Assembly: GCF_016888515.1 (NCBI RefSeq)
Contig: NZ_JAFEJK010000001.1
Coordinates: forward strand, 2,575,475 to 2,639,474
From: Shimia biformata
GTDB lineage: Bacteria > Pseudomonadota > Alphaproteobacteria > Rhodobacterales > Rhodobacteraceae
DNA: 64,000 nucleotides
Direction of reading: 5' to 3'
The position numbers and the translations under genes were made by a program. The notes beneath the pieces were generated by a model, which saw only the letters and a list, made by a program, of their open reading frames with translations, ran no database searches and was not told the DNA's origin. Of the stretch, positions 19,054-59,482 are shown in pieces. How positions within the stretch are numbered: position 1 is the stretch's first letter; every line of letters begins with the position of its first letter.

Positions 19054-19067
19054 CTAACGCCTGTTAG
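19054..19067. promoter_or_regulatory. CTAAC-N4-GTTAG operator in tetR/carboxylase promoter
   Basis: Palindrome CTAACGCCTGTTAG. On the minus strand a promoter fits: TTGAGT, 17 bases, TTAGTT, with the operator covering the spacer and -10. It is one of six main copies of the same motif in the window. Confidence 0.7.
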
Positions 19068-19170
19068 GTTAATAACTCAAGTGAGTCAATCGTCGTGATC
19101 GTGCCAGACTAGAGTTTGCGGAAAATTCCGCATTGGCGACCGCCAAGAGGCCGCCCAGACATTAATGTGC

Positions 19171-19201
19171 TTGCCCGGACCACGTCATCGGGTCCGGGCA
19201 A
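19171..19201 (-). terminator. Strong hairpin downstream of thiolase/SDR operon
   Basis: An 11-bp perfect stem, TTGCCCGGACC/GGTCCGGGCAA, with a 9-nt loop begins six bases beyond the SDR stop. There is no long T-run, so efficiency is uncertain. Confidence 0.6.
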
Positions 19202-19206
19202 CTGCC

Positions 19207-20037
19207 TTAGATCACGAAACCGCCACCGCAGATGACGTGCTGGCCTGAAATGAAGTTCGATTCCGGCGCACAGAACAGATAGACGGCACCGGCAGCTTCT
19301 TCCGGAGTGCCGACCCGGCCCAGCGGGATCATGCGCTCCATCTGGGACAGGAGATCGGGATTCACGCCGACCTTGATCTCTTTTTCTTCGACCTTGATCG
19401 TGCTGTCGCCATCCGCGCTGCCTTCGGTCAAGCGGGTGCGAATCGGGCCGAAGGCGACGGCGTTGACGTTGACCTTATAGCGGCCCCATTCCTTGGCCAT
19501 CGTCCGGGTGACCCCTAGGATACCGGCCTTAGCGGCGGAATAGTTGATCTGGCCAGCATTGCCGCCGGTCCCTGCGATGGACGAGATGTTGACTACCTTG
19601 CGGAACACCTCTTGCCCGGCGGCGGCCTCTTCCTTGGCCTTGGCGCTGATCACCGGCTGGGCAGCGCGCAGGATCTTGAAAGGTGCCGTCAGGTGGACGT
19701 CGATGATCGCCTGCCACTGTTCGTCGGACATCTTCTGAACGACGCTATCCCAAGTGTAGCCTGCGTTGTTCACGATGATGTCTAACCCGCCAAAGCTGTC
19801 CACGCCGGTCTTGATGAACCGTTCGGCAAAACCGACTTCGGTAACGCTGCCGGCACAGACCACGGCCTCAGCTCCCATTGCGCGCACCGCCTCGGCGGTT
19901 TCATTGGCCGGACCGGCGTCCAGATCGTTGATCACCAGCCGGGCCCCTTCCGAGGCCAGTTTGAGAGCGATTTCGCGGCCAATGCCCCGGCCCGAGCCCG
20001 AGACCAGCGCCACGCGCCCGTCGAGTTTTCCAGTCAT
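19207..20037 (-). CDS. SDR-family 3-hydroxyacyl-CoA-type dehydrogenase
   Basis: A 276-aa short-chain dehydrogenase with GSGRGIGREIA (NAD(P)-binding Rossmann motif), NNAGYTWDSVVQKM, a catalytic Ser in NISSIAG and the YxxxK of YSAAKAGILG. It ends ISGQHVICGGGF. It resembles the FabG-like SDRs found beside SCP-x thiolases in side-chain beta-oxidation, so NAD-dependent oxidation of a 3-hydroxyacyl-CoA is the likely reaction. It sits 24 bases after the thiolase gene, in one operon controlled from the 21.3-kb region. Confidence 0.88.
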   Translation of the reverse strand: MTGKLDGRVALVSGSGRGIGREIALKLASEGARLVINDLDAGPANETAEAVRAMGAEAVVCAGSVTEVGFAERFIKTGVDSFGGLDIIVNNAGYTWDSVVQKMSDEQWQAIIDVHLTAPFKILRAAQPVISAKAKEEAAAGQEVFRKVVNISSIAGTGGNAGQINYSAAKAGILGVTRTMAKEWGRYKVNVNAVAFGPIRTRLTEGSADGDSTIKVEEKEIKVGVNPDLLSQMERMIPLGRVGTPEEAAGAVYLFCAPESNFISGQHVICGGGFVI

Positions 20038-20061
20038 ATTGATTCCTCCCGAAAGGCGCTA

Positions 20062-21246
20062 TCAGGCTTTTTCATAAAGCGTGGTGACGCAGGCCCCGCC
20101 GAGGCCCAGATTGTGCTGAAGCGCCAGACGTGCGCCATCAACCTGGCGCGCATCTGCCTGGCCGCGAAGCTGCTGAACGAGCTCGGTACATTGCGCTAGG
20201 CCGGTCGCCCCAAGCGGATGGCCTTTGGACAAAAGACCGCCCGACGGGTTGGTCACGTATTTTCCGCCGTAGGTGTTGTCGCCATCATCAACGAATTTCG
20301 CCGCTTCGCCGCGACCGCAAAGGCCAAGCGCCTCATAGGTGATAAGCTCGTTGTGGGCGAAACAGTCGTGCAGTTCGACCACATCCACGTCCTCGGGCCC
20401 GATGCCCGCGTCCTCGTAAACCTGATCGGCGGCGCGCTTGGCCATCGAAAAGCCGACCACTTCGCGCATGTCATGGGCTTCGAAAGTTTCCGGGCCGTCG
20501 GTCGTCATGGCCTGCGCCGCGATCCGAACCGAACTGTCCAGTCCGTGCTTGTCGGCGAATTCCTTGGAACAAATGATCGCGGCGGCCGCGCCACAGGTTG
20601 GCGGACAGGCCATGAGCTTGGTCATGACGCCGGGCCAGACGACCTGGGCGGCCATGACGTCTTCCGCCGTCACCTTCTGCCGGAACAGGGCAACCGGATT
20701 CTTCGCAGCATGTCGGCTGGCCTTGGCGCGGATTTTTGCGAAGGTTTCTAGGGGGGTGCCGAACTCGTCCATATGCGCCTTGCCGGCACCGCCGAAGTAC
20801 CGCAGCGCCAGCGGGATCTCGGCACTGCCAACCAGTTCGTCGGTTTCATTGTCGAATGCCGCAAACGGGCTGACCCGGTCATGGAACATCGCACCGATTG
20901 CGCCAGGCTGCATCTGTTCGAACCCAAGTGCCAGAGCACATTCGACCGCGCCGCTTTCAACTGCCTGCCTGGCCAGGAACAGGGCGGACGATCCGGTCGA
21001 GCAGTTGTTGTTCACATTCAGAACCGGGATGCCTGTCATTCCGACATGGTACAAGGCGCGCTGACCGCAGGTGCTGTCGCCATAGACATAGCCCACATAG
21101 GCCTGTTGGACTTTATCATAATCCAACCCCGCGTCTGCCAGAGCGGACCGGGTCGCAGCGGTCGCCATCACATCGTAGCTTTCGGATTTTCCCGGCTTCT
21201 GGAACGGGACCATCCCAACGCCTGCAACATAGGCTTTGTCTGTCAT
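20062..21246 (-). CDS. SCP-x/lipid-transfer-type thiolase
   Basis: A 394-aa thiolase of the sterol-carrier/lipid-transfer subfamily that cleaves 3-oxoacyl-CoA, often with branched chains. The nucleophile is Cys82 (VNNNCSTGSSALF), with His293/His298 in ELHDCFAHNEL and His343 in GGLLSKGHPLGATG. There is no SCP2 domain, which is usual in bacteria. ATG 21246 is preceded by a GAGAGAGA-rich site. The gene heads an operon with the SDR and lies opposite a gamma-carbonic-anhydrase-like gene, with two operator-like sites between them. Branched 3-oxoacyl-CoA from the neighbouring carboxylase pathways would be fitting substrates. Confidence 0.9.
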   Translation of the reverse strand: MTDKAYVAGVGMVPFQKPGKSESYDVMATAATRSALADAGLDYDKVQQAYVGYVYGDSTCGQRALYHVGMTGIPVLNVNNNCSTGSSALFLARQAVESGAVECALALGFEQMQPGAIGAMFHDRVSPFAAFDNETDELVGSAEIPLALRYFGGAGKAHMDEFGTPLETFAKIRAKASRHAAKNPVALFRQKVTAEDVMAAQVVWPGVMTKLMACPPTCGAAAAIICSKEFADKHGLDSSVRIAAQAMTTDGPETFEAHDMREVVGFSMAKRAADQVYEDAGIGPEDVDVVELHDCFAHNELITYEALGLCGRGEAAKFVDDGDNTYGGKYVTNPSGGLLSKGHPLGATGLAQCTELVQQLRGQADARQVDGARLALQHNLGLGGACVTTLYEKA

Positions 21247-21301
21247 TTCTCTCTCTCCCTAGTTCGGTCAGGCCACCCTAATCGGTCCGCCAGCCTATTT
21301 T

Positions 21302-21315
21302 CTACCATTTGTTAG
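21302..21315. promoter_or_regulatory. CTAACA-type operator, thiolase promoter
   Basis: CTACCATTTGTTAG differs from the consensus CTAACANNTGTTAG at one base. It lies 55 bases upstream of the thiolase ATG in a divergent 253-base intergenic region. Confidence 0.6.
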
Positions 21316-21383
21316 ATTTTAAATCCCAACCTTGGGAAGTGTCAATATCGCCAAGCTGTGACGTAGGGAGCTTGCGCTATTTT

Positions 21384-21397
21384 CTAACTTGTGTTTG
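21384..21397. promoter_or_regulatory. Degenerate CTAAC-N4-GTTTG site, carbonic-anhydrase-like gene side
   Basis: CTAACTTGTGTTTG keeps CTAAC and GTTTG at the right spacing but lacks the inner A/T pair of the consensus. It lies 102 bases upstream of the gene at 21500. It could be a secondary site or chance. Confidence 0.35.
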
Positions 21398-21499
21398 TTT
21401 TCGGGCCACACGCCCTGATCGGCGGCACAATTGAGGGATTCTGGTCCCGGCGCAACCGCTGACAAGCGTTTAGCACTCAGCTTACGAAAGGTGGTCGGA

Positions 21500-22111
21500 A
21501 TGGCATACTGTTATGAGTTCAAGGGTTTTATACCCGTCGTGCCCGAGGATACATATGTCCACCCCCAGGCCGTTCTGATCGGAAATGTCATCTTGGGTCA
21601 TGGATGCTACATCGGCCCCGGAGCAAGCTTGCGGGGCGATTTCGGCAGGATCGTGATCGGGGATGGAGCCAATGTTCAGGACAATTGCATCATCCATTCC
21701 TTTCCCGGCCGCGACGCCGTGGTGGAAAGCGACGGCCACATCGGCCATGGCGCGATCCTGCACGGTTGCACAGTGGGCCGGAACGCTCTGGTCGGAATGA
21801 ATTCCGTCATTATGGATGGTGTAGAGCTTGGGGCGGAATCGATTGTCGGCGCGCAGGCGTTTGTGCGTGGCGAAACCGTGATTCCGGCGCGTTCGATGGT
21901 GGTGGGATCGCCGGCAAAGGTGATCCGCGAGGTCAGCGAGAAAGAAATCGCGTGGAAAACGCGCGGCACCGCGGAATACCAGCAACTTGCGCGCGATTGT
22001 CTGGCCGGATTGAGGCCGGTCGAGCCGCTGAAGGCGGTCGAGGCAGACCGGCCCGGCATGGCGGCCTCTGACGTCGTCTCCATTCAGGAGGCGCGGCGGA
22101 CATCGTCCTGA
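21500..22111 (+). CDS. Gamma-carbonic anhydrase-like hexapeptide protein (PaaY/CaiE type)
   Basis: A 203-aa left-handed beta-helix protein with repeated hexapeptides (for example [20 protein letters not shown]) and the three metal-ligand His residues in NCIIHSF and [12 protein letters not shown]. PaaY and CaiE homologues occur in phenylacetate and carnitine CoA pathways; PaaY has thioesterase activity that rescues dead-end CoA adducts. ATG 21500 follows AAAGGTGG. It is divergent from the SCP-x thiolase. A thioesterase or bicarbonate-supply role (three carboxylases nearby) are both conceivable; sequence alone does not decide. Confidence 0.85.
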
Positions 22112-22138
22112 CCTGTCCGGGAACCGGACCGGTCAGGA
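22106..22138. terminator. Bidirectional hairpin between convergent genes
   Basis: A stem of TCCTGACC/GGTCAGGA plus GTCCGG/CCGGAC, with one mismatch and a GAA loop, overlaps the stop codon of the hexapeptide protein. It lies between two converging genes and could end both transcripts. Confidence 0.65.
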
Positions 22139-22222
22139 CTACTTCAGATTCCGAAAGCGCCAGATGCAAGCGCCTTGACGCGGAACGGCACCCCCCGACC
22201 CGGTGTGCCGTCCCTCAAGCCT

Positions 22223-23830
22223 TTACAGACGGAAGATCCCGTAGTGCGGATCGTCGATCGGTGCATTGAGCGAGGCAGAAATCGACATGCCAAGCGCGTT
22301 GCGTGTGTCCGCCGGGTCGAGGATGCCGTCGTCCCACAATTCCGAGGTCGAGGTATAAGCCTCGACATCGCGCTTGTATTTTTCCAGCACCGGTTCGCGG
22401 ATCGCGGCGATTTCTTCTTCGGTCAGCTCTTTGCCTTCGCGCTGAAGCTGCCGAATCTTGACGTCCGCCATGGTATTTGCGGCCTGATCCGCCCCCATCA
22501 CGCCGATCTCGGCCTGGGGCCACATGAACAGCGTGCGCGCGTCCCAGGCCCGTCCGCACATCCCGTAGTTGCCGGCCCCGTAAGACGCATTGGCGATTAC
22601 TGTGAACTTCGGCACGACCGAGCCGCCCTGCGCCATCAGCATCTTGGCGCCATCCTTGGCGATGCCTCGTTCTTCGTATTCGCGGCCCACCATATAGCCG
22701 GTGATGTTCTGGAAAAAGACCAGAGGCGTGCGGTTCTGGTTGCACAACTGCATGAAATGCGCTGCCTTGAGCGAACTGTCGTTGAACAGCACCCCGTTGT
22801 TGGCAAGGATGCCGACCTTGTAACCCCAGATATGGGCAAAGCCGCACACCATCGTGGTGCCATAGTCCGGCTGGTATTCGTGAAAGCGTGAGCCGTCCAC
22901 GATCCGGGCCAGAACCTCGCGCATGTCGAACTGGGTTTTCCGGTCTTTTGGAATGATCCCGTAGAGTTCTTTGGGGTCATAGTAAGGCTCTTCATAGGCC
23001 GCGGTTTCGATGATCGTTTTCGGCGTGCGCTTCCACTGGCCGACAATCTCGCGGGCCAGTGAAAAGGCGTGTTTTTCGGTCGCGGCGCGATAGTCGCCGG
23101 TGCCCGATACCGAGGTGTGCATGACCGCGCCGCCAAGCTCCTGAACACCGACCTCTTCGCCGGTAGCCGCCTTGACCAGCGGGGGACCGCCAAGGAAAAT
23201 CGCCCCTGTGCCTTCGATGATGATGTTGTAGTCGCTCAGCGTCGGCACATAGGCGCCGCCAGCCGTGCAGTGACCGCCGACCACGGCAATCTGCGGGATA
23301 TTGGCCTGGCTCAGCTTGACCTGGTTGCGGAACACCCGCCCGCCCAGATACCGGTCGGGAAACACCCCGTGCTGCAGCGGCAGGAAACCGCCCGCGCTGT
23401 CACAGATATGGATGACCGGCAGGCGGTTTTCCAGCGCGACATCCAGAAGACGCACGACCTTTTTGACCGTATGTGGATACCAAGCCCCGCCCTTGACGCT
23501 AGCGTCGTTGGCGTGGATGGCGACCTCGCGACCCTGCACAATACCGATGCCCGTCACCACAGCGGCGCCAGGCACGGTTCCATCGTATTCGCGACAGGCG
23601 GCAAGTGTGGAAAACTCCAAAAACGGAGTGCCGGGGTCCAGCAGCAGTTTCAACCGCTCGCGCACGCCCAGTTTGTTCTGGCGGGCAAGGCGGTCGATAT
23701 CGCGTTGCGGGCGTTCGAAACGCGCCGCGTGCTGGCGGGCGTGGAATTCCTTCAGCCGTTCAGACATGGCGGCATAGTTTGCCTTGTAGTCGGCGGCATT
23801 GGTGTCGATCAGACTTTCAATCCTGCGCAT
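22223..23830 (-). CDS. Acyl-CoA carboxylase beta subunit (geranyl-CoA carboxylase-like), set 2
   Basis: A 535-aa carboxyltransferase. Motifs are GTVPGAAVVTGIGIVQG, GGHCTAGGAYVPTLSDY, ANASYGAGNYGMCGRAWDA and the tail DTRNALGMSISASLNAPIDD. ATG 23830 sits two bases after the BCCP stop, with GGAGGAG upstream. Together with a separate BCCP, a biotin carboxylase and AtuA it forms a unit resembling the atuC/atuF/atuA genes of acyclic terpene utilisation. The likely substrate is therefore a 3-methyl-2-enoyl-CoA with an isoprenoid tail; methylcrotonyl-CoA cannot be excluded. Confidence 0.9.
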   Translation of the reverse strand: MRRIESLIDTNAADYKANYAAMSERLKEFHARQHAARFERPQRDIDRLARQNKLGVRERLKLLLDPGTPFLEFSTLAACREYDGTVPGAAVVTGIGIVQGREVAIHANDASVKGGAWYPHTVKKVVRLLDVALENRLPVIHICDSAGGFLPLQHGVFPDRYLGGRVFRNQVKLSQANIPQIAVVGGHCTAGGAYVPTLSDYNIIIEGTGAIFLGGPPLVKAATGEEVGVQELGGAVMHTSVSGTGDYRAATEKHAFSLAREIVGQWKRTPKTIIETAAYEEPYYDPKELYGIIPKDRKTQFDMREVLARIVDGSRFHEYQPDYGTTMVCGFAHIWGYKVGILANNGVLFNDSSLKAAHFMQLCNQNRTPLVFFQNITGYMVGREYEERGIAKDGAKMLMAQGGSVVPKFTVIANASYGAGNYGMCGRAWDARTLFMWPQAEIGVMGADQAANTMADVKIRQLQREGKELTEEEIAAIREPVLEKYKRDVEAYTSTSELWDDGILDPADTRNALGMSISASLNAPIDDPHYGIFRL

Positions 23831-23832
23831 TG

Positions 23833-24336
23833 TCACTCCTCCTCCGGGGCCAATTGGGCCAGGATGTCTTTCAGACCAAAACTGTCGCCTTCGGCGAATG
23901 GCATTTCGGCAACGACCCCGTCGCGCGGGGCCGTCAGTGTGGTTTCCAACTTCATGCTTTCGATCACCAGAAGCGGCTGGCCTTCTTCAACCGCATCGCC
24001 GGGTTTAACCGCAACCGACACCACGACACCCGGCATGGGCGCCACCAATCGGTCGTCGCTCGCGCCACCGTCGCTTCCGGCCAGGCGTTCGGCGGGATCA
24101 ACCCGCCCGACTTCGTAGGTTCGCCCGTCCATGTGCACAAAAGTTGCTTCCGGCCCCACGGCCAGTCGCAATTCGCGCACAACACCCTTGGCCCTCAGCT
24201 TGTAACCGCCCGGCAGACCCGTCGGGTCCAATTGGCAGGCAACAGCGCCAGTGGGGGTATTGAGCACGAACCGGCTGCCATCATGACCCAGCCAGCAATC
24301 AGTCTCTTCTCCGTCCATCTGAAAAATCCGTTGCAT
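23833..24336 (-). CDS. Stand-alone BT/biotinyl domain subunit (BCCP), set 2
   Basis: A 167-aa protein corresponding to the C-terminal third of a usual carboxylase alpha subunit. A BT-like beta domain (about 1-85) is followed by a biotinyl domain (about 95-167) with the biotinylation site VIESMKLETTL (Lys129). ATG 24336 shares its A with the biotin carboxylase stop (TGATG), so the two halves are translationally coupled. In most methylcrotonyl/geranyl-CoA carboxylases these parts are one chain. Both halves look intact, so this is a clean split between domains rather than a frameshifted wreck. Confidence 0.88.
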   Translation of the reverse strand: MQRIFQMDGEETDCWLGHDGSRFVLNTPTGAVACQLDPTGLPGGYKLRAKGVVRELRLAVGPEATFVHMDGRTYEVGRVDPAERLAGSDGGASDDRLVAPMPGVVVSVAVKPGDAVEEGQPLLVIESMKLETTLTAPRDGVVAEMPFAEGDSFGLKDILAQLAPEEE

Positions 24337-25805
24337 CAGTTTCTCCACCCACCCATCTTGCGGTACATTTCCGGTATCTGCATTACGTCACTCACCAGGC
24401 GCTCGTCCGATAGGGCCGCCGCCGCCATCAGCAAGTCAGAGACATCTTCGCCCGGCGCGGTCAGCGTTTCGGATTGTTCAGCCAGGAAGCCAGTTGAAAC
24501 GTCACCAGAGGCGAAATCCGGATGTGCAAGGATTGCATCCAGGTAACCAGTGTTGGTCGTTACCCCGAGAATCACATAGCTTTGCACCGCGCTCCGGGCA
24601 CGGGCGATGGCCTGCGCGCGATCCGGGCCATGCACGATCAGCTTGGACAACATCGGGTCGAAGTCGGTCGTTACCTTGCCGCCATCCAGAATGCCGCTGT
24701 CTACGCGGATCCCCTCGCCCTGGGGTTCGTCCAGCAGCAGGATATTGCCGATCGCGGGGCGAAAATCGGCGGTCGCATCCTCGGCACAGATGCGCAGTTC
24801 GATCGAGTGTCCGGTTTGGGGAATATCCGCCTGCACGGCGCTCAGCCCGTCGCCCGCCGCGACACGCAGCTGCTCGGCAACCAGATCAAAGCCGGTTACC
24901 ATCTCGGTCACCGGATGTTCGACCTGAAGGCGGGTGTTCATTTCCAGGAAATAAAAGGCCCCATCCTGTGCATAGATGAATTCGACAGTCCCTGCCCCGC
25001 GGTATTTGACGGCGCGGGCAATTCCGGCAGCGGTCTCGCAGATCTCATCCCGTTGCTCGGGGGTCAGCGCCGGTGACGGCGTTTCCTCGATAATCTTCTG
25101 GAACCGGCGCTGGATCGAACATTCACGTTCCCAGAAATGGACCACGTTGCCCTGTCCGTCGCCCATCACCTGCACCTCGATATGGCGCGGGCGTTCGATA
25201 TAGCGTTCGACGAAAAGCCGCCCGTCGCCGAAATATCGTTCGCCTTCGCGGCGCGCGGTTTCGATTTCGGTCTCCAGCGTGCTGTCCTCGCGTACGACGC
25301 GCATGCCCTTGCCGCCACCGCCGGCCGAGGGCTTGATGAGCAGCGGATAGCCAACGGCGCGGGCGCGTTCGACAAAGCTCGCCGGATCATCATCCTCGAT
25401 GGCCGAGGGGGCGACGGGAAACCCGCGTTCCTCGACGAAGGCGCGGGCGCGGACCTTGTCCCCCATCAGGTCGATGACCTCGGACGTCGGGCCGACAAAG
25501 GTCACTCCGGCTTTTTCCAGCGCCGCGACAAAACCGGCATTCTCTGACAGAAAGCCATAGCCGGGATGAACCGCGTCCGCGCCGATCCCTTTGGCGGCTT
25601 CGACGATCTGAGGAATATCGAGATAGGCGGCCACGGGCGTCGGGCCGTCGATCATCACGACCTCATCTGCAATCAGATGCGCCGGCCCCTCTTGCTCGGC
25701 GACATGACGCAACACGGCAGTCGCAAGCCCGCGGGCCTTAGCGGTGCGCAACACGCGCGCCGCGATCTCGCCCCGATTGGCGACCAGGAGTTTCGAAATG
25801 GTCAT
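24336..25805 (-). CDS. Biotin carboxylase subunit, set 2
   Basis: A 489-aa biotin carboxylase without a BCCP domain. It has LLVANRGEIAARVLRTA, HPGYGFLSENAGFV, the ATP-grasp loop GGGGKGMRVV, YFLEMNTRLQVEHPVTEMVTG, and ends after the C-terminal BC domain at RKMGGWRN. It pairs with the separate BCCP just downstream and the carboxyltransferase beyond it. It lies 12 bases after atuA in the same operon. Catalytic segments look complete, so it should be active with the BCCP partner. Confidence 0.92.
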   Translation of the reverse strand: MTISKLLVANRGEIAARVLRTAKARGLATAVLRHVAEQEGPAHLIADEVVMIDGPTPVAAYLDIPQIVEAAKGIGADAVHPGYGFLSENAGFVAALEKAGVTFVGPTSEVIDLMGDKVRARAFVEERGFPVAPSAIEDDDPASFVERARAVGYPLLIKPSAGGGGKGMRVVREDSTLETEIETARREGERYFGDGRLFVERYIERPRHIEVQVMGDGQGNVVHFWERECSIQRRFQKIIEETPSPALTPEQRDEICETAAGIARAVKYRGAGTVEFIYAQDGAFYFLEMNTRLQVEHPVTEMVTGFDLVAEQLRVAAGDGLSAVQADIPQTGHSIELRICAEDATADFRPAIGNILLLDEPQGEGIRVDSGILDGGKVTTDFDPMLSKLIVHGPDRAQAIARARSAVQSYVILGVTTNTGYLDAILAHPDFASGDVSTGFLAEQSETLTAPGEDVSDLLMAAAALSDERLVSDVMQIPEMYRKMGGWRN

Positions 25806-25817
25806 GGTGTCGTCCTC

Positions 25818-27617
25818 TTAGTTCCGGGCCGCGGCATTCAGTCCGTCACGTGCGGCCAGATCGGCTGGCACGGGAATTTCGATATCAAGCAGCATCTGCG
25901 CGAACCCTTTGCCCTGCGGGTCTATGCGGACCGAAGCGATGCCCCCCCCGCCCAGCGAGTCATGCAGCAGGAAATTCAGCGAATGGCTTCCGGGCAGGTC
26001 GAACCGTTCTACCCTGCCGTCGCAGACATGGGCGAAATAGTCCTTCACCACCTCTTCGCTGAGAGCCGAGCGGATATATGGCAGGTAGTCCGGCTTGCGC
26101 GCGAGGATGCCGATATTGGCGATGTCCCCCTTGTCGCCCGAGCGGCCCCAGGCCAGATCGACGAGGCGGACCTTGACAACGTCCGGACCGGGCTCGCGGC
26201 TATCTGCGGGCGGTGCGGCAGGCGGATCAAGGTGGACTGGCGTGGCGGCCACGCTCACGGGCACATCCTTGCCGTCGACCTCGACCGCGACGGGGGTCTC
26301 GGCCTTGCTCTGAAGGAAGGAAAATAGACGGACCACCGGCTGCACCTTTGGCCGTCCGGCGAAGAACCCGGTCAGACCCTGCGCGGTCGAAATCGCCATC
26401 GGTGCGATTTCGCCGGCAAAGATGTTCAGCGCGGCGCGATCGTCATGGACCGCGCCGATCTTGAGCACCACCTCGCGGGTCCGGGCGCGCGCATTTGCGC
26501 CATAGGCCGCCTCGGCCCCCAGCACCTCGACGCTGACCTGCCGGAAATCTCCCATGTTGCGGTCGCGGAAAATCCGGCGACAGCGGGTCAGGATCGCCTC
26601 GGCCACACGTTCGGCCTTGGCGGGTGCGTCAATCGCGGCCAGTGTCAGGGTAGAGACCGCGCGCCAGCCATCGGCATGGGTCGCCGACACCTTGTAGCTG
26701 TCGGTGCGCCCAAGCCCCCTGCCGCCCTTGACCAGCACCCGGTCGGGTCCGACCTGTTCCAGGGTGACCCCGGACCAGTCGCAGATCACGTCGGGCAACA
26801 GGTAGGCGCGCGGGTCCCCGATTTCATAGAGCATCTGCTCTCCGACTGACCCGGGCACGACCAGCCCGCCGGTGTCAGGCGTCTTGGTCATGATGAAACT
26901 GCCGTCTTCGGACACCTCGACGATGGGCATGCCCATATTGTCCCAACCCGGCACGTCCTGCCAGTCGGTGAAGTTGCCGCCGGTTCCCTGGGGGCCGCAT
27001 TCGATCAGGTGGCCGGCCAGCGATCCCTGGCTGAGCTTGTCCCAGTCATCGTCGCCCCAACCGTATTCATGCATCAGGGGACCAAGCGCGACCGCGCTGT
27101 CGGCGCAGCGTCCGGTGATCACGATGTCGGCCCCGGCATCCAGCGCGGCAGCGATGGGGCGGGCACCCAGATAGGCATTCATGCTCCAGATATCATCTGG
27201 AAATGCGACACCCGAGAACATTTCCGTCTGACCGTTTTTGCGAATTTCATCGGCCCTAGGCAACAGGTCATCGCCTAGCACGACTCCGATGGACAGATCG
27301 ATCCCGGCCTGGGCGGCGGCTTTGGCAAGCGCATCGCTGCAGCCACGCGGGTTCACGCCCCCTGCATTGGCAACGACCTTGATCCCTTTTGCCTTGATAT
27401 CCGACAACCAGGGTGCCAGCGCCTTGACGAAGTCCGGCGCATAGCCCGACTCGGGCGCTTTGGCGCGGGCCCGCGCCATCAGCGACATTGTCACCTCTGC
27501 CAGATAGTCAAACACCAGATAGTCGATCTCGCCCTTTGAGACCAGTTGACCGATCGCTTCCGGCGTATCGCCCCAGAAGCCCGACGCGCATCCGATGCGC
27601 AGCTTTCGTTCCGACAT
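25818..27617 (-). CDS. atuA: AtuA family protein (DUF1446)
   Basis: A 599-aa member of the acyclic-terpene-utilisation AtuA family. The N-terminal DUF1446 region has IGCASGFWGDTPEAIGQLV, DYLVFDYLAEVTMS, ANAGGVNPRGC and DIVITGRCADSAVALGPL. A C-terminal AtuA-like domain carries LAWGRSGDKGDIANIGI. Family members are needed for growth on citronellol/geraniol in Pseudomonas, but their biochemical activity is unknown to me. Here it is embedded between a crotonase and the split carboxylase, which is the strongest single pointer to isoprenoid-acid catabolism in this window. Confidence 0.92.
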   Translation of the reverse strand: MSERKLRIGCASGFWGDTPEAIGQLVSKGEIDYLVFDYLAEVTMSLMARARAKAPESGYAPDFVKALAPWLSDIKAKGIKVVANAGGVNPRGCSDALAKAAAQAGIDLSIGVVLGDDLLPRADEIRKNGQTEMFSGVAFPDDIWSMNAYLGARPIAAALDAGADIVITGRCADSAVALGPLMHEYGWGDDDWDKLSQGSLAGHLIECGPQGTGGNFTDWQDVPGWDNMGMPIVEVSEDGSFIMTKTPDTGGLVVPGSVGEQMLYEIGDPRAYLLPDVICDWSGVTLEQVGPDRVLVKGGRGLGRTDSYKVSATHADGWRAVSTLTLAAIDAPAKAERVAEAILTRCRRIFRDRNMGDFRQVSVEVLGAEAAYGANARARTREVVLKIGAVHDDRAALNIFAGEIAPMAISTAQGLTGFFAGRPKVQPVVRLFSFLQSKAETPVAVEVDGKDVPVSVAATPVHLDPPAAPPADSREPGPDVVKVRLVDLAWGRSGDKGDIANIGILARKPDYLPYIRSALSEEVVKDYFAHVCDGRVERFDLPGSHSLNFLLHDSLGGGGIASVRIDPQGKGFAQMLLDIEIPVPADLAARDGLNAAARN

Positions 27618-27638
27618 ATTCCTCTCCTCCCCGTTTGA

Positions 27639-28424: not shown

Positions 28425-28490
28425 TTCCGAAGCTCCCCCCCTGTATTCAGGACACCGCGCTTTCTTACGTCAGGTCGTCAAAAGCTTGGC

Positions 28491-28518
28491 TTGATCTATT
28501 TTCTAACATATGTTTGAT
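28491..28518. promoter_or_regulatory. CTAACA-type operator within plus-strand promoter
   Basis: Operator CTAACATATGTTTG (28503-28516) differs from consensus at one base. It lies inside a promoter: TTGATC (28491-28496), 16 bases, TTTGAT (28513-28518), serving the acyl-CoA dehydrogenase operon. The divergent atuA operon starts 78 bases away, so one site may control both. Confidence 0.68.
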
Positions 28519-28558
28519 TTTGGTCAACACTGCGGACGACATTTTTCGGGAGGATGAT

Positions 28559-52705: not shown

Positions 52706-52715
52706 GGAGCGAACC

Positions 52716-54722
52716 GTGAAAATCAAAACGCTTCTGATCGCCAACCGCGGCGAAATTGCCTGCCGGATCGCGCGCACCGCGCGGGCCAGCGGTATCACCC
52801 CTGTCGGCGTGCATTCGCAGGCCGATGCCAATGCCCTGCATGTCCGCGAGATCGGCAAATCTGTCTGTATCGGTGCCGGGCCTGCATCCGAGAGCTATCT
52901 GAAAATCGACGCGGTGATTGCCGCTGCGCAATCAGTGGGCGCGGATGCGATCCATCCCGGTTATGGCTTTCTGGCCGAAAACCCCGATTTTGCTCGTTCG
53001 GTCGAAGCCGCCGGCATGATCTTCATGGGGCCGACGCCGGAAACGCTTGAACGTTTCGGCGACAAGGCCAGCGCCAAAGAGGCCGCCGTGGCGGCCAGCG
53101 TCCCGGTGATTTCGGGCGCCGAAGGTGCGCGGTCCGATCCCGAGCAGATTGCCGAGGAGGTGCGCCAAATGGGCCTGCCGGTGCTGCTCAAGGCGGTCGG
53201 CGGCGGTGGTGGGCGCGGACAACGGCTCGTCACTGACGAGACCACGCTGGTCGAGGACATCGAAGGCGCGCTGCGCGAAGCAAAATCCACCTTCGGCTCC
53301 GAAGGGCTGCTGTTGGAGCGTTTCCTGCCCGAGGCGCGCCATGTTGAAGTGCAGATCGCAGGTGACGGCAAGGGCCATGTGGTGCATCTGTTCGAACGCG
53401 ATTGCACGCTTCAGCGCCGCCACCAGAAGGTCATCGAGGAAGCCCCGGCCTGGGGTCTGCCCCGAACGCTTCTGGACGACATCGCACGCGACGCGGTGCG
53501 CTTGGGCGAAACGCTGGACTATCGCGGGCTGGGCACGGTCGAATTTCTGGTCGCGGGTGGCGAGTATTTCTTCCTTGAGGTGAACCCGCGCATTCAGGTG
53601 GAACATCCCGTCACCGAAGCGATCACCGGGCTGGACCTTGTCGCGCTTCACCTGCGGATTGCCGAAGGCGCGGGCCTTGGACTGGTGCAGGACGATCTGA
53701 CGATCAACGGCCACGCGGTCGAGGCGCGGCTTTACGCCGAAGATCCGGCGATGCAATTCGCCCCGTCGACGGGCACGCTCTCCACGCTCAGCCTGCCATC
53801 GGGCCTGCGCATCGACAGCGGCGTCGAAGAAGGCGATGCCGTCACGCCCTACTACGACCCGATGATCGCCAAGCTGATCGTGCACGCGCCCGACCGGGAA
53901 ACCGCATTGGCACGTCTGGCCACGGCGCTTGATCATGTCGCGGTCGAAGGTGTCGAGACCAATCGCGCCTTTCTAACGGCGCTGGCGCGAAACCATGAAT
54001 TCGAACGGATGCAGGTGCATACCCGCTGGATCGACGGCAGGCTGGATGAGCTGACACAGGCACCCGGCCTGACCCGCCCAGATCTGTGGAAGGCGACCGC
54101 TGCCATTCTCTTCGTGACCCAGTCGCGCAGCGACACAGACGCCAATCCCTGGACCAACCGTGATGCCTTTACCGGCTGGCGGCTTGGACTGGGCGGCGAT
54201 GCGATTGAAGCGGGGCAGCGCGTGACGCTTACCGATTCTGACGAGGTATCCGAAGAACTGCGCGTCAGTCCAGTCAAACCGGGTGCCAAGTACACCATCC
54301 ATTCGGAGAAAGGCGAGGCGCTGATACTGTCGGCACGTGAACTGACCCCGGGCCGTTGGCGTGTCGGCGAAGGCGACACCGTCCATCTGATCGACGCGCG
54401 CCTGCACGCGGGCGTGATCGAACTGGATACGCCCGAAGGCCGCCTGGTCTTTCGGCCCGCCGCGCCCCTTGCCTTTGCCGGCGGCGATGCCGCGGCGGAT
54501 CGCGCCGTGACCTCTCCGCTGACCGGCATGATTGTCGAAATCAAGGTCTCCGATGGTCAGAGCGTGGCCGAAGGCGACGTGGTCGCGGTCATGGAATCCA
54601 TGAAACTCGAAATCTCGATCCGGGCGGCCGCGGCCGGGATCGCCAGCAATATATCCGTCTCGAATGGGGACATGGTCGATCGCGGCCAGGTCATCGCCGA
54701 GATCCTGCCATCCGAGGAGTGA
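52716..54722 (+). CDS. Acyl-CoA carboxylase alpha subunit (biotin carboxylase + BCCP), set 3
   Basis: A 668-aa fused subunit. The biotin carboxylase has LLIANRGEIACRIARTA, GGGGRGQRLV and YFFLEVNPRIQVEHPVTE; a BT region follows, then the biotinyl domain with MESMKLEISI (biotin Lys630). The start is GTG 52716 with GAGGAGC upstream. In contrast to set 2 it is one chain. Next gene is an HMG-CoA-lyase-like protein, as expected for a leucine- or terpene-like carboxylation route. Confidence 0.93.
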   Translation: MKIKTLLIANRGEIACRIARTARASGITPVGVHSQADANALHVREIGKSVCIGAGPASESYLKIDAVIAAAQSVGADAIHPGYGFLAENPDFARSVEAAGMIFMGPTPETLERFGDKASAKEAAVAASVPVISGAEGARSDPEQIAEEVRQMGLPVLLKAVGGGGGRGQRLVTDETTLVEDIEGALREAKSTFGSEGLLLERFLPEARHVEVQIAGDGKGHVVHLFERDCTLQRRHQKVIEEAPAWGLPRTLLDDIARDAVRLGETLDYRGLGTVEFLVAGGEYFFLEVNPRIQVEHPVTEAITGLDLVALHLRIAEGAGLGLVQDDLTINGHAVEARLYAEDPAMQFAPSTGTLSTLSLPSGLRIDSGVEEGDAVTPYYDPMIAKLIVHAPDRETALARLATALDHVAVEGVETNRAFLTALARNHEFERMQVHTRWIDGRLDELTQAPGLTRPDLWKATAAILFVTQSRSDTDANPWTNRDAFTGWRLGLGGDAIEAGQRVTLTDSDEVSEELRVSPVKPGAKYTIHSEKGEALILSARELTPGRWRVGEGDTVHLIDARLHAGVIELDTPEGRLVFRPAAPLAFAGGDAAADRAVTSPLTGMIVEIKVSDGQSVAEGDVVAVMESMKLEISIRAAAAGIASNISVSNGDMVDRGQVIAEILPSEE

Positions 54723-54726
54723 TGAA

Positions 54727-55686
54727 ATGAGCGACTTTCCCAAATTCGTAGAATTTCGTGAAGAAGGCCCGCGTGAGGGTTTTCAGATCGAAAAGAAGAT
54801 TTACCCGATCGAAGAGCGGATCGAACTGATCGACATGCTCAGCGAAACCGGCTTGAAACGCATTCAGGTCGGCAGCTTTGTCAGCCCGAAATACGTTCCT
54901 CAGATGGCGGACACCGGCGAGTTGTTCCAGCGTATCAAGCGCAAACCGGGCGTGAACTACACATCGCTGTGGCTGAACGACAAAGGGTTTCGCAAGGCCC
55001 TGACCGCGCATGAGGTCGATATCGACCCGCGTCTGCTGTTCTATCCTTCCGAAGCATTCGCCCAATCGAACAACAATTGTTCCTCGGCCGAGATGCGGGA
55101 AAAACAACGTGACTGGGTCCGTCTTTACAAGGAAGAGGGATATACCGTCGACGCGGCCTATGTGATGACCGCTTTCGGCTGCAACCTCGAGGGCCCCATC
55201 CCCCAAGAACGCATCTTGGACGATTTCCGCTTTATCCTTCAGCTATGCGAAGAAGAGAACATCCCCGTGCCGATCCTCGTGGTCGCCGACACCATGGGTT
55301 GGGGAAACCCCGAGGCGGTCAAACGGATGATCGGCGCCCTGCGCGAATTGGCGCCCGAGGCGCGCATCGGTATGCACATCCATGACACACGTGGGCTGGG
55401 GATCGCCAACGTTTATGCGGCCCTGTCGATGGGCGTGGACATGTTCGAAAGCTCCGTCGCCGGTCTTGGCGGCTGTCCTTTCGCGGGCCACGGCCACGCG
55501 CGCGCCGCAGGAAATGTCTGCACCGAGGATGCAGTGTTCCTGTGTCACGAGCTCGGCATCGAAACCGGCATTGATCTGGACAAGCTGATCGCAGCGGCGG
55601 TCAAAGCAGAAGAGATCATCGGTGTGCCGCTCATGGGCCGGGTCATGCACACCGGCGGGTTGGACAAATACCGCAAGTCACTCTGA
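54727..55686 (+). CDS. HMG-CoA lyase-like retro-aldolase
   Basis: A 319-aa TIM-barrel lyase of the HMGL/DRE family: REGPREGFQIEKK (metal and substrate Arg region), RIQVGSFVSPKYVPQMAD, MHIHDTRGLGIANVYAALSMG and the Cys loop GLGGCPFAGHGHARAAGNVCTED. Typical HMG-CoA lyases read GCPYAPGASGNVATED, so this loop has about four extra residues including two His. It likely splits a 3-hydroxy-3-alkylglutaryl-CoA formed after set 3 carboxylation. ATG 54727 is four bases downstream of the previous stop with GAGGAG upstream. Confidence 0.87.
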   Translation: MSDFPKFVEFREEGPREGFQIEKKIYPIEERIELIDMLSETGLKRIQVGSFVSPKYVPQMADTGELFQRIKRKPGVNYTSLWLNDKGFRKALTAHEVDIDPRLLFYPSEAFAQSNNNCSSAEMREKQRDWVRLYKEEGYTVDAAYVMTAFGCNLEGPIPQERILDDFRFILQLCEEENIPVPILVVADTMGWGNPEAVKRMIGALRELAPEARIGMHIHDTRGLGIANVYAALSMGVDMFESSVAGLGGCPFAGHGHARAAGNVCTEDAVFLCHELGIETGIDLDKLIAAAVKAEEIIGVPLMGRVMHTGGLDKYRKSL

Positions 55687-55698
55687 GGGAGCAAGAAG

Positions 55699-56613
55699 AT
55701 GACAAAAGCACTTGACGGAAAGGTCGTTCTGGTCACCGGGGCCGGCGGTGGGATCGGGCGTGATATCGCCTTGATGGCAGCTACCGAAGGCGCCGCCGTG
55801 GTGGTCAATGATCTGGGCGCATCCCTGAAAGGCACCGGTCAGACAGAAACTGCGGCGCAGAAAGTCGTCGAAGAGATCAGGGCCGCTGGGGGCGATGCCA
55901 TTGCCGATGGCGGCTCTGTCACCGATCCCGATGCCGCGCGCGCGATGATCGAAGCCGGGGTCAAGGAATTCGGTCGCATCGACGCGGTGGTAAACAACGC
56001 CGGCATTCTGCGCGACGGTTACTTCCACAAGATGACCTATGAGGATTTCGACGCGGTGGTGAAGGTCCATCTTTATGGTGCCTTCAATACCAGCCGCGCG
56101 GCCGCCGACTATTTCCGCGAACAGGAAAGCGGCGCGCTCGTGCACATGACCTCGACCTCGGGGCTGATCGGCAATTTTGCCCAGGCGAACTACTCTGCCG
56201 CGAAGCTGGGCATCGCGGCCTTCTCAAAATCTGTTGCGCTTGATCTCAAGCGCTGGAACGTGCGGTCAAACTGCATCGCGCCCTTCGCCTGGAGCCGGAT
56301 GATCTCGTCGATCAAGACAGACACCCCGGAACAGGTGGCACGGGTCGAAAAGATCAAGGAGATGACACCGGCCAAGGTTGCACCGATGGCCTGTTTCCTG
56401 ATGAGCGACCGCGCGGCTGACGTGTCAGGACAGATCTTTGCGGTTCGCAAGAACGAGATCTTCCTGTTCAACCAGCCCCGCCCGGTGCGGTCGGTTCATT
56501 CCGGTGATGGCTGGACCGCCGATGAAATCGCCGATCGCGCCATTCCCGCGCTCAAATCGCAGTTCACGCCGCTCGAAGTTTCGGCGGATGTCTTTTCATG
56601 GGATCCGGTCTAA
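55699..56613 (+). CDS. SDR 3-hydroxyacyl-CoA dehydrogenase (MFE-2 type)
   Basis: A 304-aa SDR resembling the dehydrogenase unit of peroxisomal multifunctional enzyme 2: VTGAGGGIGRDIALMAATEGA, VVNDLGASLKG, NNAGILRDGYFHKMTYEDFDAV, catalytic TSTSGLIGNFAQANYSAAKLG (YxxxK present). It has a C-terminal extension (about 250-304) typical of this subgroup. It oxidises a 3-hydroxyacyl-CoA with NAD. It ends overlapping the next start (TAATG). Confidence 0.9.
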   Translation: MTKALDGKVVLVTGAGGGIGRDIALMAATEGAAVVVNDLGASLKGTGQTETAAQKVVEEIRAAGGDAIADGGSVTDPDAARAMIEAGVKEFGRIDAVVNNAGILRDGYFHKMTYEDFDAVVKVHLYGAFNTSRAAADYFREQESGALVHMTSTSGLIGNFAQANYSAAKLGIAAFSKSVALDLKRWNVRSNCIAPFAWSRMISSIKTDTPEQVARVEKIKEMTPAKVAPMACFLMSDRAADVSGQIFAVRKNEIFLFNQPRPVRSVHSGDGWTADEIADRAIPALKSQFTPLEVSADVFSWDPV

Positions 56614-57407
56614 TGGGAAAACGCAAAGAAAAAATCAGCTCCAGCATTGCCTGGAGCACCCCTGACAAGATCAGCGTGCGTGGCCTCGACCTGCCCAACG
56701 AGATCCTGGGCCACATGAACCTCGGCGATCTGGCGTTCCTGCAACTGACGGGCCGCAAGGCCACACCCGAGGAAAGCCGGGTGTTCAACGCCATCGTCAT
56801 TACCCTGGTCGAACATGGTATCACGCCCTCGGCCCTGGCGGCGCGGATGACCTATATGGGGGCGCCGGAATCGCTTCAGGCGGCTGTGGCGGCTGGCTTG
56901 TGTGGGCTGGGCACCGTCTTTGTCGGTTCTATGGAAGGTGCCTCGAAAATGCTTTACGAGGCACTGCCACAGGACAAGTTGGGCACCGGTGTCGATCTGG
57001 ATGCGCTGGCCGTCGAGACGGTAGAAAAATTCCGCGCCCGCAAGATGATCGTGCCGGGGCTCGGACATCCGGTGCACAAACCGGTCGATCCGCGCACCCC
57101 GCGCCTGTTCCAGATCGCTGCCGAGAACGGCAAGTCCGGTGAATACATCGAGTTGATCCAGAAAATTCAGGCCGTTGCCGAAGAAAAATCGGGTAAGATG
57201 CTGCCGATTAACGCCACTGGTGCGATCGGAGCGATCTGCTGTGAATTCGGCTTTCCCTGGAAGATCGTGCGGGGCTTTGGCGTCATGGCGCGCGCCATCG
57301 GCCTGGTCGGTCATATCCTCGAAGAGAGCGAAAACCCGATCTCCTATGAATTGTGGCAGCGCGCCGAAGAGGAAATCCTCGAAACCTCCGGCCCGGGAGC
57401 GGCTTGA
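56613..57407 (+). CDS. Citryl-CoA lyase-like (citrate synthase superfamily) protein
   Basis: A 264-aa protein of the short citrate-synthase/citryl-CoA-lyase fold: GLDLPNEILGHMNLGDLAFLQLTG, GLGTVFVGSMEGASKM, VPGLGHPVHKPVDPRTPRLF (conserved His region). At the place where citrate synthases and ATP-citrate lyase carry the catalytic Asp, it reads LPINATGAIGAICCEFGFP, with Ala/Thr. It may cleave a citryl-CoA-like or citramalyl-like intermediate by modified chemistry. ATG 56613 shares one base with the SDR stop; an in-frame ATG at 56598 is less likely. Confidence 0.8.
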   Translation: MGKRKEKISSSIAWSTPDKISVRGLDLPNEILGHMNLGDLAFLQLTGRKATPEESRVFNAIVITLVEHGITPSALAARMTYMGAPESLQAAVAAGLCGLGTVFVGSMEGASKMLYEALPQDKLGTGVDLDALAVETVEKFRARKMIVPGLGHPVHKPVDPRTPRLFQIAAENGKSGEYIELIQKIQAVAEEKSGKMLPINATGAIGAICCEFGFPWKIVRGFGVMARAIGLVGHILEESENPISYELWQRAEEEILETSGPGAA

Positions 57408-57410
57408 ACG

Positions 57411-58574
57411 ATGCAGACGTCAGCCCCAGACACTCACACCGATCTGCGCGATGCCTTGCGCGCACTTTGCGCGCAGTTTCCGCCAGAGTATCATCGCAAG
57501 TTCGGCGAAGACGAAACCTACCCCGAGGAATTCGTCGATGCGCTGACCCGCGAGGGCTGGCTTGCCGCGATGATCCCAGAGGAATACGGTGGCTCGGGTC
57601 TGGGGTTGACCGAAGCCTCGATCATCATGGAGGAGGTGAACCGCTGCGGCGGAAACGCGGGCCATTGCCACGGGCAGATGTATAACATGGGCACGCTGCT
57701 GCGGCATGGTTCGGATGAGCAAAAGCAGACATACCTGCCCGGTATTGCCAGCGGCGCGTTGCGCCTGCAATCCATGGCCGTGACCGAACCGACAACCGGG
57801 ACCGACACCACCAAACTGAAGACCATCGCAGTCAAGAAGGGTGACCGGTATGAGATCAATGGCCAGAAGGTCTGGATCAGCCGTATCCAGCATTCTGACC
57901 TGATGATCTTGCTGGCCCGCACTACGCCGCTGAGCGAGGTCAAGAAAAAGTCGCAGGGCCTGTCGATCTTTATGGTCGATCTGAAAGAGGCAATCGGCAA
58001 CGGGATGGAGGTCCGCCCCATCGCCAACATGCCCGGCCACGAAACCAATGAAGTGTTTTTCGACAACCTGGAAATCCCCGCCGAGAACCTGATCGGCACC
58101 GAGGGGCGCGGGTTTTACCATATTCTTGACGGGCTGAACGCCGAACGGACCCTGATTGCGGCGGAATGCATCGGTGATGGATACTGGTTCGTTGACAAGG
58201 CCCGCGCCTATGCCGGCGACCGCGTGGTCTTTGACCGTCCCATCGGCCAGAACCAAGGTGTGCAATTCCCTATCGCCAGGTCCTATGTGAACATCGAGGC
58301 CGCCAATCTGATGCGCTTTGAAGCCTGCAGGCGGTTCGATGCCGGACTGGATTGTGGTGCACAGGCGAACATGGCCAAGCTGCTGGCTTCGGAAGCCAGC
58401 TGGGAAGCGGCCAATGCCTGCATCCAGACCCACGGCGGCTTCGGTTTCGCACGGGAGTACGATGTTGAGCGCAAGTTTCGCGAGGCGCGCCTCTATCAGG
58501 TCGCCCCGATCTCGACCAACCTGATCCTCTCCTATGTCGGCGAACATATCCTCGGCATGCCCCGATCCTTCTGA
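57411..58574 (+). CDS. Acyl-CoA dehydrogenase
   Basis: A 387-aa ACAD with MAVTEPTTGTDTTKLKT, INGQKVWISRIQHSDL, the usual catalytic Glu (Glu245, GLNAERTLIAAE) and QTHGGFGFAREYDVERKFREARLYQVAPIS. The TEPTTGTDTTK block replaces the usual TEPGAGSD, suggesting a different substrate pocket or acyl polarity. It starts three bases after the citryl-CoA-lyase-like gene. Confidence 0.9.
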   Translation: MQTSAPDTHTDLRDALRALCAQFPPEYHRKFGEDETYPEEFVDALTREGWLAAMIPEEYGGSGLGLTEASIIMEEVNRCGGNAGHCHGQMYNMGTLLRHGSDEQKQTYLPGIASGALRLQSMAVTEPTTGTDTTKLKTIAVKKGDRYEINGQKVWISRIQHSDLMILLARTTPLSEVKKKSQGLSIFMVDLKEAIGNGMEVRPIANMPGHETNEVFFDNLEIPAENLIGTEGRGFYHILDGLNAERTLIAAECIGDGYWFVDKARAYAGDRVVFDRPIGQNQGVQFPIARSYVNIEAANLMRFEACRRFDAGLDCGAQANMAKLLASEASWEAANACIQTHGGFGFAREYDVERKFREARLYQVAPISTNLILSYVGEHILGMPRSF

Positions 58575-58584
58575 GGCCAGAAAC

Positions 58585-59424
58585 ATGGGTGAGATCGACC
58601 TTGACGCGCTGGCGCCCTGGCTGGGACGCACCGAGACCAAGGAAGATGTTCTGACGCAGGGGCTGATCGACAAATTCCGCGCCACGCTCGGTCCGCATCT
58701 TTGGGACGAAGCCGGCGATGTCCCGCTGGGGGTTCATTGGTGCCTTGCCCTTGATACCGTGCCAGCTGCCGCCCTGTCAGAAGACGGCCACGCCGCGAGG
58801 GGTGGATTTCTGCCCCCTGTTCTGCTGCCCGCCCGCATGTGGGCTGGCGGCGATGTTACGCATATCGCGCCGCTGAAAATCGGCGAAACCATCACCCGAC
58901 GCTCTTCGATCAGGAATATTGTGGCCAAGCAGGGCCGTAGTGGACCATTGGTCTTTGTGACCGTCGAACATGAGTATCTGAGTGGCAACCGGCTTTGTAT
59001 CCGGGAGCAGCAAACGATCGTTTATCGTGAGATTTCCACCCCCCGCACGGGCGAGAGCGCAGCTGACGCGGGTGACCCCAACACGCTTAGATCGACGCTG
59101 ACACCGGATCCTGTTCTTCTGTTTCGCTATTCGGCGCTGACGTTCAATGCCCATCGCATTCACTATGATTACGTCTACGCCACCGAAACCGAAGCCTATT
59201 CCGGACTTGTTGTGCATGGCCCATTGCAGGCCACGCTGCTTCTGAATCTGGCGGCGGGTGCGTTGAAAACATCGCCCCACCGGTTTTCGTTCCGTGGCCT
59301 CGCGCCACTCACCCTGCCCTGCGAATTGCAACTGCACAATGAAGGGACCGGCACCTCCGGGACAGTCTGGTGTCAGGATCAAAAAGGTCTTCGAAGCTTT
59401 TCCGCAGAGTACGCGGCCGTCTGA
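58585..59424 (+). CDS. HTD2/mesaconyl-C4-CoA-hydratase-like dehydratase
   Basis: A 279-aa double-hotdog protein of the FAS1-like/HTD2 dehydratase family. The N-terminal half has WCLALDTVP and GGFLPPVLLPARMWAGGDV; the C-terminal half has the diagnostic FRYSALTFNAHRIHYDYVYATETEAYSGLVVHGPL. Members hydrate mesaconyl-C4-CoA, or dehydrate 3-hydroxyacyl thioesters. ATG 58585 is chosen over an in-frame ATG at 58534 inside the dehydrogenase gene. Together with the citryl-CoA-lyase-like gene it suggests a C4/C5 dicarboxylyl-CoA step. Confidence 0.87.
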   Translation: MGEIDLDALAPWLGRTETKEDVLTQGLIDKFRATLGPHLWDEAGDVPLGVHWCLALDTVPAAALSEDGHAARGGFLPPVLLPARMWAGGDVTHIAPLKIGETITRRSSIRNIVAKQGRSGPLVFVTVEHEYLSGNRLCIREQQTIVYREISTPRTGESAADAGDPNTLRSTLTPDPVLLFRYSALTFNAHRIHYDYVYATETEAYSGLVVHGPLQATLLLNLAAGALKTSPHRFSFRGLAPLTLPCELQLHNEGTGTSGTVWCQDQKGLRSFSAEYAAV

Positions 59425-59453
59425 TCGGTCTTCTTCGGTAGCGAATTCAGTTG

Positions 59454-59482
59454 TTGACCAATTTTTCTAACATCTGTTAGGC
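59454..59482 (+). promoter_or_regulatory. CTAACA-type operator in transporter-operon promoter
   Basis: Perfect operator CTAACATCTGTTAG (59467-59480) within promoter TTGACC (59454-59459), 17 bases, TTAGGC (59477-59482). It precedes the ABC transporter/ligase genes. Confidence 0.75.

Follow-up and report, generated by a model that had tools for sequence, protein, structure and literature searches.

Several operons for acyl-coenzyme A (acyl-CoA) metabolism in a 64,000-nucleotide stretch of the Shimia biformata genome (G000:C10:2575475-2639474; hereafter, the window) are preceded by near-perfect copies of the palindrome CTAACANNTGTTAG, which raises the question of what regulator reads this element and in which way. 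The answer that we consider probable is that the palindrome is the operator of a TetR-type repressor system on a mobile RepABC plasmid, with a fused double TetR encoded in the window as the main regulator. This assignment draws on the observed clustering of the palindrome, its co-occurrence with the fused TetR gene across genomes, the presence of a site at the start of that gene itself, the matched recognition helices of the two halves of the protein, and the spacing of a TTGA element next to the palindrome.

A palindrome confined to a plasmid-like region

Six copies with at most one mismatch are present in the window (positions 19054, 21302, 28503, 34935, 46500 and 59467), compared to a mean of 0.01 and a maximum of 1 in dinucleotide shuffles. 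An earlier note, made from the window sequence alone, had described six near-perfect intergenic copies; their number and intergenic placement stand, and one coordinate is corrected from 34931 to 34935. Given that no enrichment was detected in the window at up to three mismatches (10 sites against 6.2 in shuffles, with 10 reached in 13 of 100 shuffles), only near-perfect copies, that is, those with at most one mismatch or exact matches to CTAACRNNYGTTAG, were counted throughout, the looser levels carrying no signal. The two TetR genes and the sites of the window are as follows.

18398-19027, minus strand: single TetR, 209 aa, a paralogue of the fused TetR with the same recognition helix
33524-34924, minus strand: fused double TetR, 466 aa, with two TetR_N and two TetR_C_24 domains by family search; the exact start codon is uncertain
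19054-19067, unstranded: predicted operator CTAACGCCTGTTAG, 26 bp upstream of the single TetR gene that heads a carboxylase operon (minus strand)
21302-21315, unstranded: predicted operator CTACCATTTGTTAG, 55 bp upstream of the SCP2-type thiolase gene (minus strand)
21384-21397, unstranded: weaker second copy CTAACTTGTGTTTG, two mismatches
28503-28516, unstranded: predicted operator CTAACATATGTTTG, between the AtuA operon (minus strand) and an acyl-CoA dehydrogenase operon (plus strand)
34935-34948, unstranded: perfect predicted operator CTAACAACTGTTAG, 10 bp upstream of the called start of the fused TetR gene (minus strand) and 65 bp from a short-chain dehydrogenase/reductase (SDR) gene (plus strand)
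46500-46513, unstranded: perfect predicted operator CTAACATTTGTTAG, between the dienoyl-CoA reductase gene (minus strand) and the 46.5-kb operon (plus strand)
59467-59480, unstranded: perfect predicted operator CTAACATCTGTTAG, upstream of ABC transporter genes (plus strand)

Across the 3.94-Mb genome, nine sites with at most one mismatch were found, three of them outside the window, compared to three for a reversed-pattern control, and all nine fall within 137 kb (C10:2498046-2634954). The extent of 40 kb proposed in the earlier note was therefore too small, the sites spanning 137 kb of a plasmid region of about 158 kb. At up to two mismatches, the control is far more common genome-wide than the motif (100 sites versus 17). 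Two further sites at this level lie in the island that holds the nine, one at C10 2505318 and the weak seventh site of the window at 21384, which is 82 bp from the site at 21302. All 11 island sites are intergenic, in a 170-kb sequence of which 83% is called coding.

Two identical 1403-bp copies of an insertion sequence (IS) with a Mutator-family transposase flank the window in direct orientation, 157.9 kb apart (C10:2489680-2491082 and 2647613-2649015). The region between them, which sits inside a 3.1-Mb contig, encodes a RepA-like ATPase, RepB, RepC, a relaxase, a coupling protein and VirB4, and from this gene content looks like a RepABC conjugative plasmid that is integrated, or was joined in the assembly, at the IS. 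The free conjugative plasmid NZ_CP126150.1 (Sagittula sp. MA-2 p5) has the same repABC genes (92%) and matches the stretch 18398-35775 at 94%; in the 98 kb of it that were read, there are 11 sites with at most two mismatches, 9 of these with at most one, and the related free plasmid likewise has two sites where those at 21302 and 21384 stand. Compared with the RepABC conjugative plasmids of Rhodobacterales, the Shimia region thus has repABC and the island in common with Sagittula sp. MA-2 p5 but differs in its location inside a 3.1-Mb contig between identical IS copies. According to the source fields of the records, the hosts of plasmids carrying the regulon include bacteria isolated with marine microalgae.

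A single gene with two TetR domain pairs

The locus at 33524-34924, which the earlier note had taken for tandem tetR genes, is one fused gene encoding both domain pairs in one chain, and two complete TetR domains are present in one polypeptide in all 31 aligned homologues. The recognition helix AGS(I/V)YYHF is common to both halves of the fused protein and to the single TetR (18398-19027); among the 31 homologues, AGS(I/V/L)YYHF is nearly invariant in both halves; L069 and L076 deviate with YYYF in the first half, and L093 with EPGS in the second. Given that both halves carry the same recognition helix, a symmetric operator is expected. An AlphaFold2 model built from the 31 aligned sequences (pLDDT 81.3, pTM 0.78) yields a predicted fold whose best Foldseek match in the PDB is Mce3R (9b7y_A, E-value 2.7e-10). 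In VIA-align 2, the comparison of this predicted fold with 9b7y_A gave Z 26.2 over 368 residues with a root-mean-square deviation (rmsd) of 4.7, compared to Z of at most 18.1 for the other listed structures. In an unrooted tree of N-terminal halves, C-terminal halves and single TetRs, the N-terminal halves cluster together (support 0.988).

Long tblastn matches with stops had raised the suspicion of a split ancestor of the fused TetR in L095-L099. This candidate was rejected: in L095, L096, L098 and L099, the fused frame is open over 442 residues and is accompanied by another, different TetR, and L097 likewise has the fused frame. The deposited starts of the fused TetR genes on pTHAF37_a (L104) and pMaD1 (L105), both at 20163-21401, lie inside the first helix-turn-helix (HTH), so those annotations hide the tandem design.

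The palindrome follows the fused TetR gene

The palindrome was examined around the fused TetR genes of the best 80 of 140 confirmed relatives (genome contigs), whose proteins are 54-100% identical. These 80 loci contain 184 sites with at most one mismatch and none of the reversed pattern. Such a site is located within 130 bp upstream of the fused TetR gene in 72 of the 80 loci, 47 of these sites being perfect, and a counterpart of the site at 28503 was found in 68 of the 72 loci long enough to show one.

A survey of 394 genomes of the family, with the fused TetR called at E-value ≤ 1e-60, identified the gene in 10 genomes, each with 6-10 exact CTAACRNNYGTTAG sites. Of the 384 genomes without it, 355 have no exact site, 28 have one and a single genome has two, so that three or more sites occur in every one of the 10 genomes that have the fused TetR and in none of the 384 that lack it. 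Of the genomes with distant fused TetRs, 12 were searched, and all of them contain between 5 and 8 sites, the reversed pattern occurring 0-5 times. Altogether, each of the 22 genomes counted contains 5-10 predicted operators. The expectation of the earlier note that the motif would recur at orthologous acyl-CoA operons in related genomes is borne out, with the addition that it follows one TetR gene. Given that the reversed pattern is itself not rare, this tie to the TetR gene, rather than the bare count, is the telling result.

Operator profile and promoter layout

The 193 sites with at most one mismatch were reduced to 51 non-redundant ones (flanks less than 70% identical). Their profile is approximately AAWT-CTAAC(A85/G15)NN(T/C)GTTAG-AWTT, the sixth base of the arm being A in 85% of the sites. 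The sequence TTGA is present at positions -13 to -10 relative to the palindrome in 23 of the 51 sites, compared to a mean of 1.6 and a maximum of 6 in 1000 shuffles. A TTGA 10-13 bp upstream places the palindrome between the -35 and -10 elements, which is a repressor layout. The earlier note had drawn promoters of this type with the right arm of the palindrome as the -10 element; the TTGA spacing and the repressor-type arrangement hold, but the better-fitting -10 element is TAGAWW, which starts at the last three bases of the palindrome, with spacers of mostly 16-17. In a second group of sites (15 of 51), TTGA is located at -27 to -24. At 28503, two face-to-face promoters can be drawn across one operator. 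Promoter scores of single sites were no better than those of shuffled flanks (fractions 0.06-0.97).

Fused TetR, single TetR or another regulator

Several observations speak against the fused TetR as the main reader of the palindrome. No near-perfect site precedes the TetR gene in eight of the 80 loci: one locus is truncated by the end of its contig, six show a site with two mismatches instead, and L093 (Acidocella) has none. The reversed pattern is not rare, with 0-9 copies per genome in the 394 genomes and 0-5 in the 10 with the fused TetR, and the count alone says little in G429, where it is 6 against a control of 5. The counts include related genomes, plasmids and sites, and the plasmid is mobile, so they are not independent trials; many of the 23 sites with TTGA are likewise orthologues of two sites and do not represent 23 independent cases. 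The rmsd to Mce3R is 4.7 for a model built on just 31 sequences. Finally, the single TetR is found alongside the fused one in 9 of 10 genomes, so that co-occurrence hardly separates the two proteins, and G031 has a lone single TetR (55%) with the same operator 33 bp from its start.

The last two points bear on the alternative that the single TetR, acting as an ordinary homodimer, is the true reader of the palindrome, with the fused TetR gene being just another of its targets or the fused protein a modulator. This protein has the same recognition helix as the fused halves, and in most of the listed single TetR genes, the operator is 19-44 bp from the called start (633 in one copy; no operator is present in the stretch of L114). 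Among the 394 genomes surveyed, the single TetR query matches 22 at E-value ≤ 1e-35, including all 10 with the fused TetR. The other 12 have a single TetR relative without the fused TetR; one site is present in 4 of them and none in 8. Of these 4, three were read: next to G031, with its site at the TetR start, the site is 1.2 and 3.0 kb from the single TetR relative in G062 and G134, respectively. In G085 only the fused halves match, yet there are 7 sites (control 5), and the same holds for the metagenome-assembled genomes G424 (Acidocella; 5 sites, control 2) and G429 (Bradyrhizobium; 6 sites, control 5), which may be incomplete. The latter two argue that the fused TetR suffices without the single one, an argument weakened by the absence of a nearby site at the fused gene in G424 and by the high control in G429. 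On balance, the single TetR as the true reader appears unlikely, although, because the recognition helix matches, both proteins likely read one operator.

In G407, the single TetR relative (L126, 1651-2286, minus strand), which adjoins a carboxyltransferase-like gene, has RTPSLYYHF in place of KAGSIYYHF; no CTAAC operator was found at L126 and no site in this genome. This helix change is a possible natural specificity switch.

Another option is that the regulator is an activator, or acts in both ways, at some operons, given that the palindrome is too near the promoter at only part of the sites. Indeed, 28 of the 51 sites lack TTGA at -13 to -10 in either orientation, 15 of the 51 having it at -27 to -24 instead, and the single-site promoter scores do not rise above shuffled flanks. 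Nevertheless, with either spacing of TTGA the palindrome would reach into the -10 region, where repressors usually bind, and most studied TetR proteins are repressors; activation or dual regulation is quite improbable.

That the motif belongs to a chromosomal regulator outside the plasmid is a negligible prospect: where the fused TetR is absent, a lone CTAACATATGTTAG does stand at the start of an unrelated TetR gene in four cases, but none of the nine near-perfect sites of the Shimia genome lies outside the island and the 355 genomes noted above have none.

The lone sites were checked at six loci with a single CTAACATATGTTAG from the 29 genomes that have sites but no fused TetR. In L118-L121, the site is at the start of a gene for a TetR of the YHHGDLR type, with further GTTAG- or CTAAC-like halves nearby, and this gene adjoins one that, judging by its N-terminus, may encode an efflux membrane-fusion protein; we read this as a different regulon with a look-alike operator. 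No frame for a TetR of the YHHGDLR type was present in the mechanical open reading frame list for L125 and L127.

Under the reading in which the fused TetR is the main regulator, for which we infer DNA binding, repression and an acyl-CoA inducer, its halves would fold together like a TetR dimer and place two near-identical helices onto the two arms of the palindrome. When substrate is absent, the protein would sit between the -35 and -10 elements of its own promoter and those of the other operons, blocking RNA polymerase. An acyl-CoA intermediate would then release it, and the genes for uptake, CoA activation, beta-oxidation, electron transfer flavoprotein (ETF) and carboxylases would be turned on together; the single TetR probably reads the same operators. 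More speculatively, and with rather low likelihood, a single tethered, pseudo-symmetric chain might read one palindrome, with its two unlike ligand-binding halves sensing two different acyl-CoAs and the plasmid-borne protein thus integrating early and late intermediates of branched-acid breakdown, with the paralogous single TetR competing for operators.

Relation to known TetR systems

According to PMC11667970, Mce3R has an asymmetric M1-M2 fold with two non-identical HTHs and a non-palindromic operator, and double TetR family regulators (TFRs) are described as infrequent, with 204 predicted in Actinomycetes. The fused TetR resembles Mce3R of Mycobacterium tuberculosis (PDB 9b7y) in having two TetR domains per chain, a predicted intramolecular TetR-like pseudo-dimer and presumed targets in lipid metabolism. 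It differs in its matched recognition helices and in the near-perfect palindrome before many operons, non-identical HTHs with a non-palindromic operator being a trait described for Mce3R alone; by its domain make-up it is a double TFR that differs from Mce3R in operator symmetry. Mce3R being the sole solved double TetR and using a lopsided operator, the alphaproteobacterial proteins, with matched reading heads and a clean palindrome, offer a simple contrast for studying why TetRs fuse.

As the earlier note suggested, the site is built like that of PaaR. The TetR family protein PaaR of Thermus thermophilus (TTHA0973), which responds to phenylacetyl-CoA, has an operator reported as CNAACGNNCGTTNG (PMC6651687), and a later selection gave AACnAACGTTnGTT; frame and half-site CNAAC are alike, whereas the sixth base of the arm is mostly A in the sites described here. 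Moreover, PaaR is a single-domain homodimer that acts on phenylacetate genes, in contrast to the two-domain fused protein with other target genes. AtuR and RdmA of Pseudomonas, which control acyclic terpene and diffusible signal factor (DSF) genes, are also TetR repressors before an atuA-type operon, but they are single-domain proteins of about 206 aa with other reported operators (AGCAAGCGCTTGG / CCAAGCGCTTGCT). The AtuR operator was set aside as an explanation of the motif, the conserved site at the AtuA operon being different in sequence. FadP and LiuQ likewise head TetR regulons over acyl-CoA genes; in PMC5343134, both are given as unique to betaproteobacteria among those studied. No account of the motif or of an alphaproteobacterial double TetR regulon was found among the matches listed in searches of openly licensed papers. 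The present set of predicted regulon, operators and promoters provides a testable case for a transferable catabolic plasmid.

Genes behind the predicted operators and the inferred substrate

The genes next to the sites are listed below; their names are in part taken from orthologues.

12828-18393, minus strand: carboxyltransferase (16795), enoyl-CoA hydratase (15991), biotin carboxylase (13991) and acyl-CoA dehydrogenase (12828); 15991 and 13991 are named from the annotation of orthologues
19207-21246, minus strand: SDR dehydrogenase and SCP2-type thiolase ('lipid-transfer protein', NF006102)
22223-28424, minus strand: enoyl-CoA hydratase, AtuA, biotin carboxylase, biotin carrier and carboxyltransferase, the latter with Gly at the place of the pocket Phe of the methylcrotonyl-CoA carboxylase (MCC) beta subunit
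28559-33542, plus strand: two acyl-CoA dehydrogenases, SDR, enoyl-CoA hydratase and two PaaI-type thioesterases
35014-39863, plus strand: BadH-like SDR (below the family cut-off), acyl-CoA synthetase, NAD(P)-binding reductase and thioesterase
42881-46377, minus strand: 2,4-dienoyl-CoA reductase (FadH type) and AMP-binding ligase
46555-59424, plus strand: acyl-CoA dehydrogenases, hydratase, PaaK-like ligase, biotin carboxylase subunits, hydroxymethylglutaryl-CoA-lyase-like protein, SDR, citryl-CoA-lyase-like protein and MaoC-type hydratase
59579-60415, plus strand: branched-chain-type ABC transporter ATPase; further genes start at 60441 and 62433

The part of the island beyond the window contains genes for class III CoA transferases, a ChsH2-type OB protein with a thiolase, MaoC, ETF, a ligase and parts of ABC transporters. 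Judging from these annotations, the putative regulon serves uptake, CoA activation and beta-oxidation and includes three biotin carboxylases. For the three carboxyltransferases, MCC is the best or nearly the best PDB match; for the one at 51107, the best match is AccD1 (4q0g, named acetyl-/propionyl-CoA carboxylase). By PDB names, the carboxylase lineage is not clean, the high-scoring chains including 9tps, named propionyl-CoA carboxylase. Geranyl-CoA carboxylase (GCC) is described in PMC4673880 as having Gly at the place of MCC Phe191 and lacking three residues just before it. To locate this place, residues of human MCC were counted in its alignment with the 22223 protein: at that position, this protein, encoded in the AtuA operon, has Gly (YLGGR) but no three-residue deletion, and its best PDB matches are MCC, not GCC, whereas the other two carboxyltransferases keep Phe (HFG and QFG). 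Together, these features point to a beta-methyl-branched, isoprenoid-like acid as the presumed substrate, a lead rather than a result.

A possible BioY biotin transporter gene (12213-12779, minus strand), named from its place and its length, equal to that annotated on p5, adjoins the biotin carboxylase operon, and biotin uptake may belong to the regulon. Within the SDR/ligase operon, the gene at 38634-39386 (plus strand) is annotated as an HTH gene on related plasmids and has a weak match to QhpR.

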